Below, piece by piece: positions 44,661-60,494 of a stretch of DNA of 64,000 nt. A program made the position numbers and the translations under genes. Under the pieces are notes generated by a model, which searched no databases, was not told where the DNA came from, and was given only the letters and a program-made list of their open reading frames with translations. Position 1 is the stretch's first letter. Each line of letters starts with the position of its first letter. The DNA comes from Bradyrhizobium sp. AZCC 1693 (lineage in GTDB: Bacteria > Pseudomonadota > Alphaproteobacteria > Rhizobiales > Xanthobacteraceae): the NCBI RefSeq assembly GCF_036924745.1, contig NZ_JAZHSD010000001.1, forward strand, positions 248,001 through 312,000, read 5' to 3'.

Positions 44661-44727
44661 TGCAGGGTGGGCCACGCTTCCGCCTTCGCTCTTCCGAGCT
44701 TCGGCAGACAAGCTAACCCGCCCCACA
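44661..44727. repeat. Partial GTGGGC-type repeat
   Basis: CAGGGTGGGCCACGCTTCC followed by GCCTTCGCTCTTC and CAGACAAGC closely follows the right half of the unit at 57496-57630, but it is shortened. No open reading frame of note occupies it. Confidence 0.6.
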
Positions 44728-52290: not shown

Positions 52291-52316
52291 CACATTGGTG
52301 CTCGATCTTGAATCTG

Positions 52317-52664
52317 ATGGCCGAGGACGACCCGACCGACGAGATTTCCCTCATCGAGGAGCGGCTCGAGGAGCTTGCCGAAGTCTCGGAGCGATGCCGG
52401 AAGATCATTCTGGTTTCCAAGGCGGCCATCGCCGGCGGCTTCGCATTGCTGCTCGTGATGATGCTCGGCCTGTTCGGGTCCAGTCAGGTCGCCGCCCTCG
52501 GCTCGATCGCCGCGGTACTCGGCGGAATCGTATCGCTCGGATCGAATGTCAGCACGTTGCGGCAGACGAGCGACGCCATCAGCGCCGCCGAGGCGCTCCG
52601 TTCGGATCTGATCGGCAGGATCGATCTCCGGGTGGTCGGCGATAGCCCCATGAAACTGAGTTGA
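52317..52664 (+). CDS. Small membrane protein with two TM segments
   Basis: It has 115 residues from the ATG at 52317 (a TTG at 52308 is an alternative). An acidic N-terminal helix (ISLIEERLEELAEVSERCRK) precedes AAIAGGFALLLVMMLGLFG and VAALGSIAAVLGGIVSLGS, then an amphipathic end. No family is assigned. Confidence 0.65.
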   Translation: MAEDDPTDEISLIEERLEELAEVSERCRKIILVSKAAIAGGFALLLVMMLGLFGSSQVAALGSIAAVLGGIVSLGSNVSTLRQTSDAISAAEALRSDLIGRIDLRVVGDSPMKLS

Positions 52665-52685
52665 CGCGCCTCGCACAGGCAGTGC

Positions 52686-52811
52686 TAGGGTGGGCAAAGC
52701 GACTTGTCCGCCGTAGCTCGAAGAGCGGAGGCGGAAGCGTGCCCACCATTCTTGCCCTCGCACAAAATGGTGGGCACGGCGCTGAGAGCGCCTTTGCCCA
52801 CCCAACGAAGC
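52686..52811. repeat. GTGGGCAAAG hairpin repeat, island left flank
   Basis: TAGGGTGGGCAAAGCGACTT and CGTGCCCACCATTC are mirrored by ATGGTGGGCACG and CTTTGCCCACCCAACG. This long inverted structure is about 126 bp. Its left half reappears in reverse orientation at 57551-57630. Confidence 0.85.
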
Positions 52812-52837
52812 TTTTGTCACCCTCGCAATCGTGTCGG

Positions 52838-53479
52838 TCACGCCACGAGCGTCGCCGGCGCAGATTTCTTGCGACGATAGGCGCCGTAGCCGATCCCGGC
52901 GAAGCCGAGCAGCATCATCGCCCAGGTCGACGGCTCGGGAACGGCTGAAACCGCATCAAAGGAAACAGTTCCTTCGAAGAACACCGCTGCATGGTTGTTG
53001 GGAGTCGGTCCGCCAAAAATTCCACTCAGCGTGTTGTTGACGATGAAATGAAGCGTATTGGTCCCCACGACAAAGGGTCCCGTAATCGGATCGAATGTCG
53101 AGGTGCTGTTCCCGTAGCGAAAATTGTATGCAGCATTGTCGCTGCCATCAGGCAGGAAATAAAACGAACCCGATCCGGGTCCAAAAATGCCGGTCTCGCT
53201 CACATTCGTGCCATTCAGTTGAAGCACGGCGCGATCGTCGGCCGCGAACAACGAGGTATTGAGAACCGCGTTCGAAAAACCCACCGGAAGCACGAATGTC
53301 GCGTCTACCGTGTAGTAGGAGTTGGCGAAGTCTCCAAAGTCCTGGCCGACGCTTACATTGATTGTCGTGGCTGAAGCAGTTCCCACTGCTGCGAAGAGCA
53401 TAGCGGCGGCACAGGTTATGCCGGCGATTGATTTTGACTTCACTATCGAGGCGAACAAGTAATTCTTGAGCATTTTCAT
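52838..53479 (-). CDS. PEP-CTERM (PEPxxWA type) sorted exoprotein 1
   Basis: It has 213 residues. The signal peptide ends near ASA-T (about residue 37). The C-terminal sorting signal is VPEPSTWAMMLLGF, a hydrophobic helix, then YRRKK. Such proteins are processed by an exosortase, usually in exopolysaccharide-producing strains. The middle (TINVSVGQDFGDFANSYYTVDATF) is a beta-rich secreted domain without a recognised function. It is divergent from the chimeric LuxR-type gene. Confidence 0.92.
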   Translation of the reverse strand: MKMLKNYLFASIVKSKSIAGITCAAAMLFAAVGTASATTINVSVGQDFGDFANSYYTVDATFVLPVGFSNAVLNTSLFAADDRAVLQLNGTNVSETGIFGPGSGSFYFLPDGSDNAAYNFRYGNSTSTFDPITGPFVVGTNTLHFIVNNTLSGIFGGPTPNNHAAVFFEGTVSFDAVSAVPEPSTWAMMLLGFAGIGYGAYRRKKSAPATLVA

Positions 53480-53579
53480 TTACCGAAATCTCCTACTTTC
53501 AAAATACGCCGATGCGAAAAGGCTAGAAGATCGACGTGACGCGATCCATAGGCCCGCGCTTTGCGCGGCGTTCGGTCGC

Positions 53580-53595
53580 TACATCAAATGATGTA
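53580..53595. promoter_or_regulatory. Conserved palindrome TACATCA-AA-TGATGTA, copy A
   Basis: A perfect 7-bp inverted repeat with a 2-bp spacer, identical in both module copies while surrounding bases differ in places. It lies about 15 bp upstream of a promoter-like -35 box, between divergent genes. Candidate operator for the LuxR-type regulator. Confidence 0.55.
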
Positions 53596-53610
53596 CGGCA
53601 GGGCCGGCTG

Positions 53611-53638
53611 TTGCAGTTATTTGGCCCGGCGATACACT
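53611..53638 (+). promoter_or_regulatory. Candidate promoter of LuxR copy A
   Basis: TTGCAG (53611-53616) and TACACT (53633-53638) with a 16-bp spacer, about 60 bp before the ATG. The same boxes are kept in copy B. Confidence 0.4.
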
Positions 53639-53700
53639 GTCTTGATTACGGTGCTGCAAGTAGTTTCAATTCTGCCATTTTACCGCGGGGGCGGGGCTTG

Positions 53701-54291
53701 ATGAATCAGGACGATTTGCTCGTCATCATCGAGAAGATCTATGAAGCCGCGACCGACACGAGCCTCTGGCCCGTCGTCCTCCAGACCATCGCCGACGCCT
53801 TTGGCGCCCAGGATGCGTCGCTGAGCGCGGTCTCGCCGGTGGCCGTGCCCTGGCTGGTCGCGCCGCGCACCGATCCTTCGTTCCTGCAAAGCTATGGGCA
53901 GCATTATCATCCGTTGAATCTGTTCTGGGACCGCATGACGCGCGTGCCGGTCGGTACCGCGGTCACCGACCGCATGGTGCTTCGCCAGGAAACCCTCCGC
54001 GCCAGTCAATTCTACAACGAGTGGTCGCGGCCGCGGAACTACCTTTCGGTGATGGGGGCGACGCTTCTCGTCGAGGATCAATGGCGCTTCGAGTTCGTCG
54101 TTCCCGGCAAGAACGTCATGCTGACCAAGCCGCTCAAGGGCTGTTCGCAATTGAAGAGCTGGGCCATGCGGATCAAAAAGCGCGCCGGCATGAGCAAAGC
54201 CAAGGTGGCGTTGGCGCGCCGGCTCGCGGTGATCATGCACCGCATGCTCGCCGACGGAACACCCTTCAACGCCGCTGCGGCGGCAGCCTAA
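53701..54291 (+). pseudogene. LuxR-type regulator 5' half fused in frame to IS110 transposase 3' end
   Basis: The 196-codon frame encodes residues 1-137 of the LuxR-type protein (nearly the same as the gene at 56395). From codon 138 it continues as the last 59 residues of the IS110 transposase (NVMLTKPLKGCSQLKSWAM...). The junction is an AACG microhomology at 54112-54115. The HTH is lost, and the transposase part lacks the DEDD and Ser residues. Whether the chimera is expressed is unknown; it keeps promoter and start signals. Confidence 0.9.
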
Positions 54292-54543
54292 CAGGGAGAA
54301 ACAGCAGTTTTCGGGCGGGTCACGACACCAGGCCTTCTCGAAGCGAAGTCCCTTCGCCGGGACGATGGATCAGGTCAGGCCGTTGCCCACCAGGTCGCCT
54401 CGTGAGCACGCTCAACGTAGATTGGTCGACCTATCCTCTTCCAACCCCATCAGGTGGCGGCCCTGCGCCGACCCCGTACAGAAGCGAGACCCCGGCGGGC
54501 GGACAACGCAAAGGGATTGACTAATCGAGGCCCGTTACAGAAG
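54112..54543 (+). mobile_element. Truncated IS110-family element, right end only
   Basis: 432 bp reading the same as 59983-60414: the final transposase codons, stop and about 252 bp of right noncoding end. Identity stops at a GAAG followed by GGTGGGCAAAG here and CGTGGGCAAAAG in the full copy. It covers most of the gap after the chimeric frame. Confidence 0.88.
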
Positions 54544-54630
54544 GGTGGGCAAAGCGCAGCGTGCCCACCATCTCTCCAGTGCGACGCTGCATGGTGGGCA
54601 CGCTTTCGCTTTGATTTGCACACCCTACGA
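54544..54630. repeat. GTGGGCAAAG hairpin repeat beside the truncated IS110
   Basis: GGTGGGCAAAGCGCAGCGTG and CCCACCATC pair with ATGGTGGGCACGC and a CACCCTACG end. It starts exactly where identity with the second IS110 copy ends. Confidence 0.8.
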
Positions 54631-54655
54631 GGCTTCGTCCTCGCGTTCATGACGG

Positions 54656-55366
54656 TCAGGCCGCGACGGCCGCCGGCTTCCTGCGGCGATAGACACCGTA
54701 GCCGATGCCGGCGAAGCCGAGGATCATCATGGCCCAGGTTGAAGGTTCGGGAACGCCGCTGCTGATCGTGACGTTCGTCGGCGTGAGTCTCGCATGAACG
54801 TACGCGCTGTACATCCCCGTGACGAAATTGCGATACTCGATATCGACGATTGCAAAAATGCCGTCCTTGGAGTCGACCGTGTGGCTGAAGGGACCGTCGA
54901 GCGATGACGGAAAAAGCGAGTCAAGCCGATCCAATCGGTGAATGAGGTTCACGGTCTCCGTGGTTGGTCCAAGCTGGGCGAGGCGCTTGATGTCGTGCTG
55001 GATCAGGCTGCCCGTGTCGTGAATGCCCTGAATGAACCCGAGTTTGTTGGGGACGAAATCGAGACTCACATTGTTGATCGTGAAGGTCGCGCTGAGCGCC
55101 GGCGACGGCGAGCCGAAGAAACTCCCTCCAAGCGCATAGTTCCATCCCGGCGAGTTCAAAGTTTCGCCGAGGCTGGTGTCGAAAACGTAGACGGCCTTAT
55201 AGGCGGCGCCATCAAGATGGTCGCCGGCATGGAAGAACCCGATGGGGTCATCTCCGCTTGCAACGGTGCCGTTATAGGTCACCGTGACGATCGTGGCGCC
55301 GGCAGGGGCAATGCCTGCAAGGCAGACAGTCAGGCCGGACAAGACGATCAATGCAAATTTTCGCAT
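54656..55366 (-). CDS. PEP-CTERM (PEPxxWA type) exoprotein 2
   Basis: It has 236 residues from the ATG at 55366. The signal peptide is about residues 1-24 (ending APAGA). The C-terminal VPEPSTWAMMILGF, hydrophobic helix and YRRRK form the sorting signal. The core (VTYNGTVASGDDPIGFF, YKAVYVFDTSLGETL) is a secreted beta-rich domain common among PEP-CTERM proteins. It differs from its two neighbours except at the sorting tail. An upstream extension crossing the terminator was rejected. Confidence 0.92.
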   Translation of the reverse strand: MRKFALIVLSGLTVCLAGIAPAGATIVTVTYNGTVASGDDPIGFFHAGDHLDGAAYKAVYVFDTSLGETLNSPGWNYALGGSFFGSPSPALSATFTINNVSLDFVPNKLGFIQGIHDTGSLIQHDIKRLAQLGPTTETVNLIHRLDRLDSLFPSSLDGPFSHTVDSKDGIFAIVDIEYRNFVTGMYSAYVHARLTPTNVTISSGVPEPSTWAMMILGFAGIGYGVYRRRKPAAVAA

Positions 55367-55444
55367 TTTGAATTCCGAATACCGGGGGTTGCTCGTTGTC
55401 GACGTATAATTTTGCGCAATGTCCCGTGGTCGGACGTCGCAAAT

Positions 55445-55473
55445 AAAAAGGCCGCCACGAAGGCGGTCTTTTT
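55445..55473 (-). terminator. Intrinsic terminator after PEP-CTERM gene 3
   Basis: A 12-bp stem with one G-T pair (AAAAAGGCCGCC / GGCGGTCTTTTT) and an ACGAA loop lies 14 bp past the end of the minus-strand gene at 55487. A-rich and T-rich flanks suit termination in either direction. Confidence 0.85.
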
Positions 55474-55486
55474 GCATTCATCTCGG

Positions 55487-56173
55487 TCAGGCCGCGAGGG
55501 TGGCCATCTTCTTGCGACGATAGGCTCCGTAGCCGACGCCGGCGAAGCCGAGCAGCATCATGGCCCAGGTCGAGGGCTCGGGCACGGCGCCCGTCACAAA
55601 ATTCGGGCTGAAACTGTCGGCATTCAGGCTCAGGTCTCTGAAGGTGATCGTGTTCGCGCTGGTGCCGCCATATTCCTCGAGGAGAAACACATCGAGCGTG
55701 AGCTGCTGGTTGGTGAAGCCCGAAATCGTAAACGTACCGCCGCCTGCCCCGGGCGTGTAGGTCAATGAGTTGATGCTCAGGAAATTGTTGACGTGAACGT
55801 CGCCGGAACTGGCGAAATGAAACACGTCGGAAAAACTGTTCGCCTGATTATGGACTTCCAGTCCGGCTTCACCATCCAGAGCAAGTATCGACGGATAGAG
55901 GTCGAAGACCGAAAGCGTGAAGTTGCCGGAGAACGTAAAGTTGCTCTGGAGATCGGCGCGCCCTTTGTTGGTGCCGCTATCATGGTTGAATACAATTCCA
56001 CTACTGGTCAGCGCGGCGCCGAAGCCCTGGGTGGTGGTGATCGAAAGATTTGGATTGAGCGTGCCGCTGGTGAGGCTGTCGAAAAATGTCACCGCCTGCG
56101 CTTGACCTATCGAGCTGACAGCAAGCCCGGACAGGAGAGCGAATGCAAACACATTAGTCCCGGACAATTTCAT
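55487..56173 (-). CDS. PEP-CTERM (PEPxxWA type) exoprotein 3
   Basis: It has 228 residues from the ATG at 56173. The signal peptide ends near AQAVT (about residue 29). VPEPSTWAMMLLGF, a hydrophobic helix and YRRKK close the protein. The core is Ser/Thr/Asn-rich and beta-rich. It is divergent from the intact LuxR-type gene, the same layout as copy A, but its core sequence is not similar to exoprotein 1, so only its flank is duplicated. Confidence 0.92.
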   Translation of the reverse strand: MKLSGTNVFAFALLSGLAVSSIGQAQAVTFFDSLTSGTLNPNLSITTTQGFGAALTSSGIVFNHDSGTNKGRADLQSNFTFSGNFTLSVFDLYPSILALDGEAGLEVHNQANSFSDVFHFASSGDVHVNNFLSINSLTYTPGAGGGTFTISGFTNQQLTLDVFLLEEYGGTSANTITFRDLSLNADSFSPNFVTGAVPEPSTWAMMLLGFAGVGYGAYRRKKMATLAA

Positions 56174-56272
56174 TTGCGAAAATCTCCTACACTGAAAATT
56201 CACTGATGCGAAAGGCTAGAAGATGGATGTGACGCTAGCCAGCCGTTCGGGCTTGGCGCGGCGTTCGGTCGC

Positions 56273-56288
56273 TACATCAAATGATGTA
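56273..56288. promoter_or_regulatory. Conserved palindrome TACATCA-AA-TGATGTA, copy B
   Basis: Identical to 53580-53595 and in the same position relative to the regulator promoter. Confidence 0.55.
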
Positions 56289-56303
56289 CGGCAGGGCCGG
56301 CTG

Positions 56304-56331
56304 TTGCAGTTATTGGGCCCGGCGCTACACT
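56304..56331 (+). promoter_or_regulatory. Candidate promoter of LuxR copy B
   Basis: TTGCAG (56304-56309), 16-bp spacer, TACACT (56326-56331), starting 16 bp after the palindrome. The spacing matches copy A. Confidence 0.4.
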
Positions 56332-56394
56332 GTCTTGATTACGGTGCTGCAAGTAGTTTCAATTCTGCCATTTTACCGCGGGGGCGGGGGCTTG

Positions 56395-57498
56395 ATGAAC
56401 CAGGACGATTTGCTCGTCATCATCGAAAAGATCTATGAGGCCGCGACCGACACGAGCCGGTGGCCCACCGTCCTTCAGACCATCGCCGACGCATTTGGCG
56501 CGCAGGATGCATCGCTGAGCGCGGTCTCGCCGGTGGCTGTGCCCTGGCTGGTCGCGCCGCGCACCGATCCGTCGTTCCTGCAAAGCTACGGGCAGCATTA
56601 TCACCCGCTAAACCTGTTCTGGGACCGGATGACGCGCGTGCCGGTCGGTACCGCGGTCACCGACCGCATGGTGCTTCGCCAGGAAACCCTCCGCGCCAGT
56701 CAATTCTACAACGAGTGGTCGCGGCCGCAGAACTACCTTTCGGTGATGGGGGCGACGCTTCTCGTCGAGGATCAATGGCGCTTCGAGTTCGTCGTTCCCG
56801 GCAAGAACGCGTTCGGGCCGGAGCAGATCAAGCTCTACGATGCGCTGGCGCCGCACCTCAAACGCGCGGTGCAGCTCACACACCGCCTGCAATCCGCAGA
56901 GCTCGATCGTGCCTATTCGCACGGCGCACTCGACAGCCTCGACCGCGGCATGCTGATGGTCGACTCCAGGGCGCGCGTGTTGTTCGCAAACCAGGCGGCA
57001 AAGAGATCGTTCAACGCCGGCCTGAAAATGGTGGATGGCGTGCTGTGCGGGACAAAGCCGTCGGAAACCGCGTGGCTTCATCTGGCAATCGCCGATCCCT
57101 TCAACAATGGCGGGCGCAATGAGATCGCGATTTCGCGAGATGCGGATCGCGCGCCGCTGTCGTTAACGGTGATACCGCTGCGGCATCACGTCGAATGGAT
57201 CGCGCGGCATGAGCAGGCGGCGATCGTCTTCGTCAGTGATCCCGAGGACGCCGCGTGCCAGCGGCATCAAGCCTTGCAGCAGCAGTTTCGCCTGACGCGC
57301 GCCGAAGCCGCCCTGGTCGAGGAAATGCTGAAAGGCGGGGACATGCCTGATGTCGCAGCCCGGCTTGGAATCGCGCCGGCGACCGCGCGAACGCACCTGC
57401 ATCGCATCTTCCGGAAGACGGGCACGACACGCCAGTCCGAGCTGGTGCATCTGGCGTTGTCGCCGGGCGAGGGCGTTCGACGAAACGGCGGCGCGTAG
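56395..57498 (+). CDS. LuxR-type HTH regulator, intact copy
   Basis: It has 367 residues from the ATG at 56395. A long N-terminal sensor-like region (about 1-200, IEKIYEAATDTSRWPTVLQTIADAFGA) is followed by a PAS-like stretch (LDRGMLMVDSRARVLFANQAAK). The C-terminal LuxR HTH is at about 297-350: FRLTRAEAALVEEMLKGG, DVAARLGIAPATARTHL and IFRKTGTTRQSELV. The divergent PEP-CTERM gene is a likely target. The upstream in-frame extension crosses the promoter and was rejected. Confidence 0.9.
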   Translation: MNQDDLLVIIEKIYEAATDTSRWPTVLQTIADAFGAQDASLSAVSPVAVPWLVAPRTDPSFLQSYGQHYHPLNLFWDRMTRVPVGTAVTDRMVLRQETLRASQFYNEWSRPQNYLSVMGATLLVEDQWRFEFVVPGKNAFGPEQIKLYDALAPHLKRAVQLTHRLQSAELDRAYSHGALDSLDRGMLMVDSRARVLFANQAAKRSFNAGLKMVDGVLCGTKPSETAWLHLAIADPFNNGGRNEIAISRDADRAPLSLTVIPLRHHVEWIARHEQAAIVFVSDPEDAACQRHQALQQQFRLTRAEAALVEEMLKGGDMPDVAARLGIAPATARTHLHRIFRKTGTTRQSELVHLALSPGEGVRRNGGA

Positions 57499-57630
57499 GG
57501 TGGGTTAGCGCGCAGGGTGGGCAAAGGCGCACTGCGCCGTGCCCACCATTCTCGTGCGAGTCAAAGTTGGTGGGCACGCTTCCGCCTTCGCTCTTCGCTA
57601 CGGCGGACAAGTCGCTTTGCCCACCCTACG
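57496..57630. repeat. GTGGGTTA/GTGGGCAAAG composite repeat, island right flank
   Basis: TAGGGTGGGTTAGCGCG then CAGGGTGGGCAAAGGCG starts at the LuxR stop. CGTGCCCACCATTC pairs with TTGGTGGGCACGC and the unit ends CTTTGCCCACCCTACG. The right half is the reverse complement of the left half of 52686-52811, with few differences. Confidence 0.85.
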
Positions 57631-57635
57631 AAACA

Positions 57636-58883
57636 TCACTTCATCGCCGTACAACTCGCATAGAACGTCGTCGTCGCCGGCCAGTCCGAGAACATGCCGC
57701 GCACGCCGACCTGTTTGGCGAGCACGTCCAGCACGGTCAGCGAATCGCCGTCGCGATCGACCGCTGATTTGATCGATTTGTGATAGAAGCCGCCGCCCTT
57801 GTGCAGCGGGCCGTCGCGCTCCAGCGACCAGCCGATCAGGTCGAGGCCGGCGGCCTTCGCGGCCTTGGCGTATTCGGACGGGACGATCTCGCGCTTGTCG
57901 TTCAGCGTCAGCATGGTCCAGATCGGAGGGCCGAGGATGGCTATGCCTTGCGCCTTCAATTCTGCCATCGAAGGTTTCCAGGTCTCTGGCTTGCTGGGAT
58001 CGAGACCCTGCTTCTCGTAGCGCTCCTCGAGATAGACCGCCTGCTTTGCGAATTCCGGCTCGGTCTTCACCCAGTAGAGCACGTCGGCGAGATTAAAACT
58101 TTGCGCAAACACATCGCCCGGGGCAATGCCGGCTTTCTTGTAGGCGTCCAGCATTTGCGAAGCGTATTTCTCCTGGCTGTAATCGCCGTCGAATGGCATC
58201 GGCACTTCCGGCGCCTTCAGCTCCGGCGTGAATTTGGCGCCCAGGCTCTTGATCAGCGCGATGCTCTCGTCATGCGTCATCAGCGTGCCGGAATTGGCGT
58301 AAAGATCCGTGCGCCAGCGCGGCGTGCCGTTCTGGTATTCCTCCGCCGTCTTCGCATCCGGATTGAAGCCGTCCATCTTCGCGCTCAGCCGGCGGAATTC
58401 GGCAAGCGTGATGTCGCTGGTGCAGCACTTTGCCGACGCCTTCTTGCCGCTTGCCGGGTCGGCCGGGCTGAACGCCTGCGAGCATTTGGCGGCAAGCTCC
58501 GGCACCGTCAAAATGTTGGTCGTGGTGTGCAGGTCGCACTGCGAATGGCGGCAGACCAGTTCGCGGTCCTTGGTAAAGGTCACGTCGCATTCGATGATGC
58601 CGGCGCCCATGCGGGCGGCCGCGACATAAGATTCTTTCGTATGCTCGGGAAACTCCAGCGCTGCGCCGCGGTGGCCGATGGAAAAGTCGGTCTTGCGAAA
58701 CGGCCCGGTGCACTGGCTGAGCTGTTGCTTCAGCGGCCCGTCCTTCATCTTGTCGACCAGATAAAACGGCCGCGGCCCGATCTGCGGCTCGTGGGGTAGC
58801 AAGATGTCGTCGGCAAGGGCGGGAACGGCCGCCGCCAGCAGCCAGAGGGCTGCGGCAAGGGCGGAGCGATGGCGGATGGGCAT
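57636..58883 (-). CDS. Glycerophosphodiester phosphodiesterase, secreted
   Basis: It has 415 residues from the ATG at 58883, with GAGGTG upstream and a signal peptide (ending ALAD, about residue 23). The GDPD motif [18 protein letters not shown] supplies catalytic His and Glu. [19 protein letters not shown] supplies the E-x-D metal site and second His. Additional Cys residues (CCTSD) may form disulfides. It hydrolyses glycerophosphodiesters to glycerol-3-phosphate. A longer frame to 59072 passes through a hairpin repeat and was rejected. Confidence 0.9.
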
Positions 58884-58981
58884 GGGTGGCACCTCGGATA
58901 ACGCGTTGCGCGCGGCCTTGATATCACGGAGCATGTGACAGTTGCGTGTGGAAGGATACGTAGATGGGGTAACGGGCCCCG

Positions 58982-59059
58982 GCCCGCCTTCCAAGCAAGC
59001 CGCGCTTGCTACGGCGCTGTTGGGTAGCGCGCTTCGCGCGGCTTGCTTGGAAGGCGGGC
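58982..59059. repeat. Long hairpin with a perfect 24-bp stem
   Basis: The 24 bases at 58982-59005 (beginning GCCCGCCTTCC) are the exact reverse complement of 59036-59059 (ending GGAAGGCGGGC), with a 30-base loop. It lies between the glycerophosphodiesterase gene and the IS110 transposase gene. Confidence 0.9.
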
Positions 59060-59081
59060 GGTCGTCCCTCACATTGATGGT

Positions 59082-60414
59082 GTTACGGAGTCAGAGGGAT
59101 GAGCCTCGCTCCAAGCATCGAGGAGAGACGACCATGAACCACTATGCCGGAATCGACGTGTCATTGGAATGCTCGAGCGTGTGTGTTGTTGACGCAAGCG
59201 GCAAGATTTTGCGCGAGGCCAGGGTGGCCAGCGAGCCGGAGGCGCTGATCGCCTGGTTCCGGCAGTCTGGCTTTGAGTTTGAGCGGATCGGGCTGGAAGC
59301 CGGGCCCTTGTCGCAATGGCTGTTTGCGGGGATGAAGGCGGCCGGCCTCGCCGTTGAGCTGCTCGAGACGCGGCACGTGCGGAAGGCGTTCGAGGCGATG
59401 CCGGTCAAGTCGGATCGCAACGATGCACGCGGGATTGCGCAACTGATGCGGCTGGGCTGGTTCCGGCCGGTGCACTGCAAATCGATCAGTGCGCAAGAGA
59501 CCCGATCGCTGTTGACCGCCCGCAAGCTGGTGCAATCGAAGCTTCTCGACGTCGAGAACAGCCTGCGCGGGATCCTGCGCGGTTTTGGCCTCAAGGTTGG
59601 CAAGACGACCGGGCAGACTTTCGCGGGACGGATCGAGGAACTCGTGGACGGCCATCCGCACCTGCAAATGATCGCCAAGGCGCTGCTGGCGGTGCGAGCG
59701 GTGCTGCGGACCGAGTTCGCAGCTTTCGAGAAGCAAACCCGCAGGATGGTGCGGTCCGATACGCAGGCACGGCTGCTGACGTCAGTCCCGGCGGTCGGCC
59801 CGATCGTGGCGCTGACCTATGCCAGCGCAATCGACGATCCGACCCGGTTCAAATCGTCGAAGCAGGCAGGAGCCCATTTCGGGTTGACCCCGAAGAAGCA
59901 TCAATCCGGTGAGACCGACTACACCGGCCGGATCAGCAAGATCGGTGACGCCTCGGTGCGCACGGCGCTCTATGAGGCTGCCAACGTCATGCTGACCAAG
60001 CCGCTCAAGGGCTGTTCGCAATTGAAGAGCTGGGCCATGCGGATCAAAAAGCGCGCCGGCATGAGCAAAGCCAAGGTGGCGTTGGCGCGCCGGCTCGCGG
60101 TGATCATGCACCGCATGCTCGCCGACGGAACACCCTTCAACGCCGCTGCGGCGGCAGCCTAACAGGGAGAAACAGCAGTTTTCGGGCGGGTCACGACACC
60201 AGGCCTTCTCGAAGCGAAGTCCCTTCGCCGGGACGATGGATCAGGTCAGGCCGTTGCCCACCAGGTCGCCTCGTGAGCACGCTCAACGTAGATTGGTCGA
60301 CCTATCCTCTTCCAACCCCATCAGGTGGCGGCCCTGCGCCGACCCCGTACAGAAGCGAGACCCCGGCGGGCGGACAACGCAAAGGGATTGACTAATCGAG
60401 GCCCGTTACAGAAG
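59082..60414 (+). mobile_element. IS110-family insertion sequence, full copy
   Basis: It contains one intact DEDD transposase gene, a short left noncoding end and about 252 bp of right noncoding end. The right boundary (60414) is set by loss of identity with the second copy. The left boundary is a guess at a GTTACGGAG resembling the GTTACAGAAG at the right end. The layout with a long right noncoding end suits the IS1111 subgroup, whose right end is reported to encode the bridge RNA. Confidence 0.7.
59134..60162 (+). CDS. IS110-family transposase (DEDD recombinase)
   Basis: It has 342 residues from the ATG at 59134. The RuvC-like N-terminal domain has D8 (AGIDVS), E55 (GLEAGP), D94 and D97 (SDRNDARG). 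The C-terminal Tnp_20 domain has SAIDDPTRFKSSKQAGAHFGLTP; S241 or S242 matches the catalytic Ser region. GAGGAGAGAC precedes the ATG. The gene looks intact. Its last 59 codons are duplicated at 54112-54291. Confidence 0.93.
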   Translation: MNHYAGIDVSLECSSVCVVDASGKILREARVASEPEALIAWFRQSGFEFERIGLEAGPLSQWLFAGMKAAGLAVELLETRHVRKAFEAMPVKSDRNDARGIAQLMRLGWFRPVHCKSISAQETRSLLTARKLVQSKLLDVENSLRGILRGFGLKVGKTTGQTFAGRIEELVDGHPHLQMIAKALLAVRAVLRTEFAAFEKQTRRMVRSDTQARLLTSVPAVGPIVALTYASAIDDPTRFKSSKQAGAHFGLTPKKHQSGETDYTGRISKIGDASVRTALYEAANVMLTKPLKGCSQLKSWAMRIKKRAGMSKAKVALARRLAVIMHRMLADGTPFNAAAAAA

Positions 60415-60494
60415 CGTGGGCAAAAGCGCAACGTGCTCACCGTGCAACAACGGTGCAAGAAATGGTTTGCACGCTACGCTTTGCCTACCCTACA
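60415..60494. repeat. GTGGGCAAAAG repeat beside the IS110 right end
   Basis: CGTGGGCAAAAGCGCAACGTG, GGTTTGCACGC and CTTTGCCTACCCTAC form a degenerate version of the GTGGGCAAAG unit. It directly adjoins the element, as in the truncated copy. Confidence 0.75.

Follow-up and report, generated by a model that had tools for sequence, protein, structure and literature searches.

A slot for PEPxxWA-CTERM exoprotein genes in Bradyrhizobium with changing cargo between a conserved regulator region and conserved sorting tails

The window analysed here is a stretch of 64,000 nucleotides (C1:248001-312000) from the single-contig 7.61-Mb genome of Bradyrhizobium sp. AZCC 1693 (G000). It contains a slot (52665-57635) for genes encoding PEPxxWA-CTERM exoproteins next to LuxR-type regulator genes. 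From left to right the genes are g118, cargo A (-), LuxR copy 1 (+), cargo B (-), cargo C (-), LuxR copy 2 (+), a GDPD-family gene (-) and an IS110 element (Table 1). A preliminary description of this DNA had recognized two divergent arrangements of a PEP-CTERM gene and a LuxR-type gene with a third PEP-CTERM gene between them. This layout holds: the arrangements lie 2.69 kb apart and the third gene is an open reading frame (ORF) at 54656-55477. All three exoproteins exceed the PEPxxWA-CTERM cut-off (NF035944; 40.5, 41.4 and 41.9 bits, cut-off 35). As had been proposed, they share only the tail, and no match among the three is found at E 0.01 once the tails are removed.

The two arrangements are joined by a repeat (53471-54115 and 56165-56809) that begins in the first exoprotein codons and stops where LuxR copy 1 meets an IS110 remnant. 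The intergenic DNA and the 5' half of the LuxR gene had been called nearly identical. The repeat is real but the wording was too strong: identity is 93.0% over 646 columns, the synonymous divergence (dS) of the LuxR copies is 0.185 over 137 codons, and only the last 135 bp reach 99%. Likewise, the 3' halves of the LuxR genes are not a divergent pair. The 3' part of copy 1 is lost and replaced by an IS110 3' end; nothing of the regulator follows after about codon 138, and the last 58 or so codons of the IS110 transposase continue in frame. The remnant is 99.1% identical to 59983-60441, DNA from the 3' portion of the intact IS110 (58942-60162). By eye, both the remnant (54541-54600) and the intact IS110 (60412-60490) end beside GTGGGCA-type palindromic repeats, as if these were an insertion target.

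Judged by its sequence, LuxR copy 1 is not a working regulator and LuxR copy 2 (P0001) is intact. Copy 2 has a GerE match of 27.5 bits (cut-off 23.5) and copy 1 has none. Among the Pfam and NCBIfam matches of P0001 there is no autoinducer-binding domain, and the protein does not classify as a LuxR regulator of acyl-homoserine lactone (AHL) quorum sensing. PAS matches are present in a few homologues of P0001, and a search of solved structures returned a single weak response-regulator match (E 0.0065).

Table 1. Features of the exoprotein slot and its neighbours, in positions of the window
Feature	Position	Strand	Remarks
g118, 118-aa gene, left slot neighbour	52308..52664	+	same neighbour in G192, G004, G144; beside empty site in G235, G257, G072
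Dispersed palindromic repeat, left border	52686..52803	.	matches 57515-57628 in inverted orientation (89%)
Cargo A, PEPxxWA-CTERM protein, 213 aa	52838..53479	-	start (~12 codons) like cargo D of B. algeriense, body like cargo A of G144
Control region 1	53480..53700	.	palindrome TACATCAAATGATGTA at 53580-53595
LuxR copy 1, 5' part only, ~138 codons, no helix-turn-helix (HTH)	53701..54115	+	
IS110-family 3' remnant, in-frame fusion to LuxR copy 1 (ORF end 54291)	54112..54569	+	99.1% to 59983-60441; IS110 match
Cargo B, PEPxxWA-CTERM protein	54656..55366	-	longest ORF 54656-55477; probable start 55366 is our choice
Cargo C, PEPxxWA-CTERM protein	55487..56173	-	longest ORF to 56203
Control region 2	56174..56394	.	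palindrome TACATCAAATGATGTA at 56273-56288
LuxR copy 2 (P0001), intact, 367 aa	56395..57498	+	GerE HTH at residues 300-354
Dispersed palindromic repeat, right border	57515..57628	.	
GDPD-family gene, right slot neighbour	57636..59072	-	PF03009; same neighbour in relatives
IS110-family transposase ORF, intact	58942..60162	+	NF033542 247 bits, cut-off 140

The regulator was surveyed in 265 Bradyrhizobium genomes, with at most seven candidates scored per genome. Homologues of P0001 above 60% identity were listed in six genomes and close homologues (at least 91%) in four. These are the present genome, G192, G004 (B. algeriense; locus L016) and G144 (a metagenome-assembled genome (MAG); L017). In all four the close regulator faces a PEPxxWA gene, always at one chromosomal site between g118 and the GDPD gene. 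A second close copy of the regulator was seen only in the present genome among the 265; in this sample the doubling is private to one strain, a condition that the preliminary description had named as refuting its reading, but neither the module nor the change of cargo is.

GDPD-bearing genomes numbered 25. Besides the module loci 14 neighbourhoods were taken, of which L109 ends short of the slot, leaving 13 to be judged. None of the 13 contains the module: g118 is directly followed by GDPD in three (G235, G257 and G072), a TTT-receptor gene is directly followed by GDPD in five, and the gap is filled with other DNA in five. G160, the nearest genome by its GDPD gene (96.7%), has about 1.5 kb in the g118-GDPD gap without a match to any module locus, which suggests that the site may accept varied inserts. 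Two open frames are visible by eye in this gap (L102). On the GDPD tree, in which only two of 15 inner branches are well supported, the four module genomes group together no better than randomly permuted labels do (4 changes; 500/500 shuffles as low). A plasmid origin of the module was considered and set aside: no plasmid record covers 80% of it, and the 20 records listed of 96 that match all match the IS110 stretch. No regulator relatives were confirmed in viral contigs.

Could the module be a mobile element whose ends are the 115-bp inverted repeats at its borders? The repeats, 89% alike, bracket the whole insert, and the site is empty in relatives. However, the border repeat belongs to a dispersed family with 41 matches listed genome-wide, the other three module loci have different borders, an empty site also has a palindrome, and no transposase belongs to the unit. 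The repeats were accordingly rejected as mobile-element ends, and we give this explanation almost no credence. A further member of the dispersed palindromic family lies in the window at 44666-44712.

The claim that regulator and control region are kept while the cargo changes is confirmed at one syntenic site in four genomes, where the divergent gene is A, C or D. The cargo proximal to LuxR is C at copy 2 and in G192 (92% identity); B. algeriense has D in this position and G144 has A. The proximal cargo at copy 1 combines the body of A with about 12 first codons that are D-like. In the distal position B. algeriense and G192 both have A' (97.6%), G144 has E and the present genome has B. The alignment of B. 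algeriense with G192 runs at 85.8% from g118 over A' and includes the proximal tail, breaks off over a body of 534/564 bp, and resumes at 91.4% across the start codons, promoter, LuxR and GDPD. A variable body thus lies between homologous ends at an orthologous site, as in cassette exchange, and the exchange of bodies is seen by comparison, in a small sample. The bodies are under constraint, with a ratio of nonsynonymous to synonymous divergence (dN/dS) of 0.15 (A), 0.19 and 0.32 (C), and 0.45 (A').

The A' tract itself (L016 6464-7222) differs between B. algeriense and G192 by 22 mismatches in 759 columns. In the same pair the pooled TTT, g118, LuxR and GDPD genes have 248 differences in 3673 (p 1.9e-6 against the A' tract). 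The dS of A' is 0.025, compared with 0.158 for LuxR, 0.221 for TTT and 0.261 for dn63084. Between the present genome and G192, dS is 0.099 for cargo C, 0.211 for LuxR and 0.238 for TTT. The A' tract ends inside the A' tail on one side and at the C/D body/tail junction on the other. Because it is bounded by tail DNA, the tract points to a concrete route in which the sorting signal itself would supply the homology for exchange. The module tails also resemble each other more in their codons than do those of other PEP-CTERM genes in this genome. At positions with the same residue the three tails of this locus agree at 39/55, and tails from different module genomes at 416/551, same-cargo pairs included. 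Agreement is 210/380 between the module tails and other PEP-CTERM tails of this genome (eight of 12 were compared), and 215/450 among those others.

Relatives of the cargo were also sought outside the module with tail-less sequences, in 257 genomes for each search, drawn from a larger group; G004 is absent from the matches listed and may not have been drawn. Cargo B has a relative in G053 (72%), a fragment of C occurs in G065 (88%), and D has a relative in G234 (53%). Weaker matches to B (32-44%) were found in G192, G207, G155 and G026. The 32% relative in G192 (L069; G192:C1:4747935) has an internal stop and is possibly a decayed PEP-CTERM gene. The matches in G053, G065 and G234 occupy one orthologous place, a second slot (L099, L100 and L101) that adjoins a DAO-type oxidoreductase. 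A BTAD-AAA-TPR regulator, most of which is absent from G065, lies opposite the cargo in G053 and G234. At this slot the latter two genomes are 92% identical up to the tail and 85% from the promoter on, with different cargo between. At its 3' end, A' of G192 matches the 3' end of cargo F in the second slot of G053 with 91% identity across 130 nt. Its tail is 94% like that of cargo F, compared with 83% like the tail of A' in B. algeriense. This likeness is the main sign of traffic between slots.

How the module came to be doubled bears on this history. The dS between the LuxR copies is as large as between species (0.147-0.199), and a recent duplication is ruled out because of it. Compared with the LuxR gene of B. 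algeriense, dS is 0.199 for copy 1 and 0.147 for copy 2. The 85 bp adjoining the cargo are 95% like B. algeriense in copy 1 and 88% like G192 in copy 2, while the copies are mutually 75% identical here, 96% in the next 150 bp, and higher still at the IS110 end. At 16 of the 22 informative sites copy 1 goes with B. algeriense and copy 2 goes with G192; four sites unite the two copies, and two follow the third pattern. By these comparisons the doubling is old or imported; local gene conversion over an older split would fit the pattern.

The same figures are compatible with birth and death: an old tandem duplication would have left two complete units with already different cargo, lineages kept one or the other, bodies diverged or disappeared, and no exchange took place. 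The between-species distance of the LuxR copies and the pairing next to the cargo speak for this account, and frequent duplication and loss of PEP-CTERM genes are reported in the available portion of Haft 2006 (PMC1569441). It leaves unexplained the low dS of the A' tract, the different tails on near-identical A' bodies, the D-like start of cargo A, and the presence of the same cargo families at the second slot. We therefore regard birth and death without exchange as an unlikely, though serious, alternative.

The control regions contain a candidate local regulatory site. A perfect TACATCA-AA-TGATGTA palindrome is present in control regions 1 and 2 and in those of B. algeriense and G192, and with one mismatch in that of G144. 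With up to one mismatch it occurs only in control regions 1 and 2 in the whole 7.6-Mb genome; a genome-wide regulon acting through the palindrome was rejected on this ground. When control region 2 was shuffled, 1% of the shuffled sequences contained a perfect 7-2-7 palindrome. The geometry of the palindrome recalls sites of the NarL/GerE type. Terminator-like sites are as frequent as expected (5 found, 5.1 expected). A scan for sigma-54 -24/-12 sites gave 9/12 matches in both control regions, a level reached by 33 sites in the window.

The exosortase is encoded elsewhere. The absence of an exosortase from the window, noted in the preliminary description, was verified: the only PF09721 match in the genome at E 0.001 is at C1:7039440-7040207. 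It is of the XrtV type (318.1 bits, cut-off 313). Polysaccharide-type genes and other PEP-CTERM genes surround it, and its distance from the module is 0.87 Mb if the contig is circular. Among 12 further genomes an exosortase was found in six (G192, G004, G062, G065, G053 and G234) and not in G160, G235, G257, G158, G161 and G144. Co-occurrence with the module had been proposed for examination in the preliminary description. Three of the four module genomes have the exosortase, the exception being G144, the MAG, which is 87% complete; so do two (G062 and G065) of five module-free slot genomes tested, and it was not found in the other three.

The preliminary description had also suggested that the regulator family marks scattered PEP-CTERM cargo loci. 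Tabulating the divergent neighbours supports this for the close homologues, where PEPxxWA genes occur in 4/4, and fails to do so beyond them. The two homologues at 64-67% identity face an AraC-type gene. No PEPxxWA gene lies within the 1.5-kb flanks of 24 genus loci at 31-41% identity, 15 of which have a divergent YadA-like gene with YadA-head repeats (L023, L031-L033, L035-L044 and L046). Here the 30 nearest upstream neighbours of distant homologues were scanned, and the YadA match in L023 is below the curated cut-off. Fourteen of the YadA-facing regulators fall in one clade of 17 and L023 in another, which suggests mainly one inherited pairing. The close regulator is found at one site only, and no other P0001 homologue found at E 1e-10 comes closer than about 139 kb to the other 12 PEP-CTERM genes above the cut-off in the present genome. 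Scattered marking is accordingly very improbable. The present genome also has a regulator paralogue at 36% identity (L011; G000:C1:1412512-1413627) with an internal TGA; its neighbour looks by eye like the end of a YadA-like gene, with no Pfam match.

We consider it probable that the locus is a locally regulated surface-protein slot in which homologous recombination, by way of control DNA and sorting tails, exchanges the bodies. The slot holds PEPxxWA-CTERM exoprotein genes whose reading direction points away from a GerE-type regulator dedicated to them. In the genomes compared, one side retains regulator, control DNA and first codons, the other side retains the sorting-tail DNA, and unrelated bodies replace each other between. 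The presumed mechanism is recombination with incoming or sister-locus DNA, paired through the control region and the repeated tail DNA. Regulation and export we infer: LuxR copy 2 would bind the 7-2-7 palindrome and set expression of the divergent exoprotein, which would leave the cell by its signal peptide, be processed by the single XrtV-type exosortase, and join the envelope or exopolysaccharide layer. In the present genome two versions of the slot stand in tandem; in version 1 most of the regulator has gone, along with part of an IS110. Since version 1 has kept its palindrome, LuxR copy 2 could serve both.

Several observations weigh against this interpretation. The comparison rests on only four module genomes and three second-slot genomes, and the LuxR gene of G144 is split by a frame change. 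The p value of the A' tract is optimistic because the tract ends were picked by best score. A little-diverged A' between two genomes could reflect the chance transfer of that stretch, and the conservation of tail DNA also follows from that of the protein motif. The palindrome, a candidate LuxR operator, did not turn up in the upstream DNA of 13 more distant homologues, five of which have other short palindromes. The scan of the region for sigma-70-like promoters found none (1.7 expected by chance). Finally, the exosortase was undetected in G144 and in some module-free genomes.

If exchange occurs as proposed, the slot suggests a way in which ordinary recombination could alter the surface of such bacteria, and protein sorting would be tied to surface diversification. 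Tentatively, the idea may be taken further. Sorting-tail DNA may double as a recombination joint, so that tail and regulator-linked control DNA act as standard adaptors and bodies circulate as cassettes between species and at least two slots (GerE-type and BTAD-type). The wider regulator family would then be dedicated to divergent surface proteins, PEP-CTERM or YadA-like.

The PEP-CTERM/EpsH system is the closest known counterpart. The available portion of Haft 2006 (PMC1569441) describes sigma-54 sites, PrsK/PrsR and fast-evolving PEP-CTERM sets that turn over with only the tail in common. As here, unrelated bodies have a common tail in fast-evolving sets, and a single exosortase lies in a polysaccharide-type cluster. 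There control is by sigma-54/PrsR, whereas here a local divergent GerE-type regulator with its own palindrome would be in control. The words 'LuxR', 'recombination' and 'Bradyrhizobium' are absent from the main text of that paper. No account of how PEP-CTERM bodies change, nor of this module, was found in the literature searched (titles and the beginnings of abstracts, with few subscription papers). The pepA gene of Aquincola, for which the available part of PMC9850573 describes RpoN control, likewise encodes a regulated PEP-CTERM exoprotein, with sigma-54 there and a GerE-type neighbour here. A local regulator with a single candidate operator is unlike the sigma-54 control described in other Proteobacteria. 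The loci of YadA-like trimeric autotransporters resemble the slot in pairing a homologous regulator with a divergent surface protein (15/24 genus loci). They differ in that the protein is a type V adhesin and not an exosortase substrate, and the regulator is only 31-41% identical. Variation of surface proteins by recombination between constant ends is known in the pilin, M-protein and internalin kinds. The likeness to these stops short of silent donor copies or switching within a clone, one genome per species being compared here. It lies in the variable body between conserved ends, which in this slot are a control region and an exosortase sorting tail.

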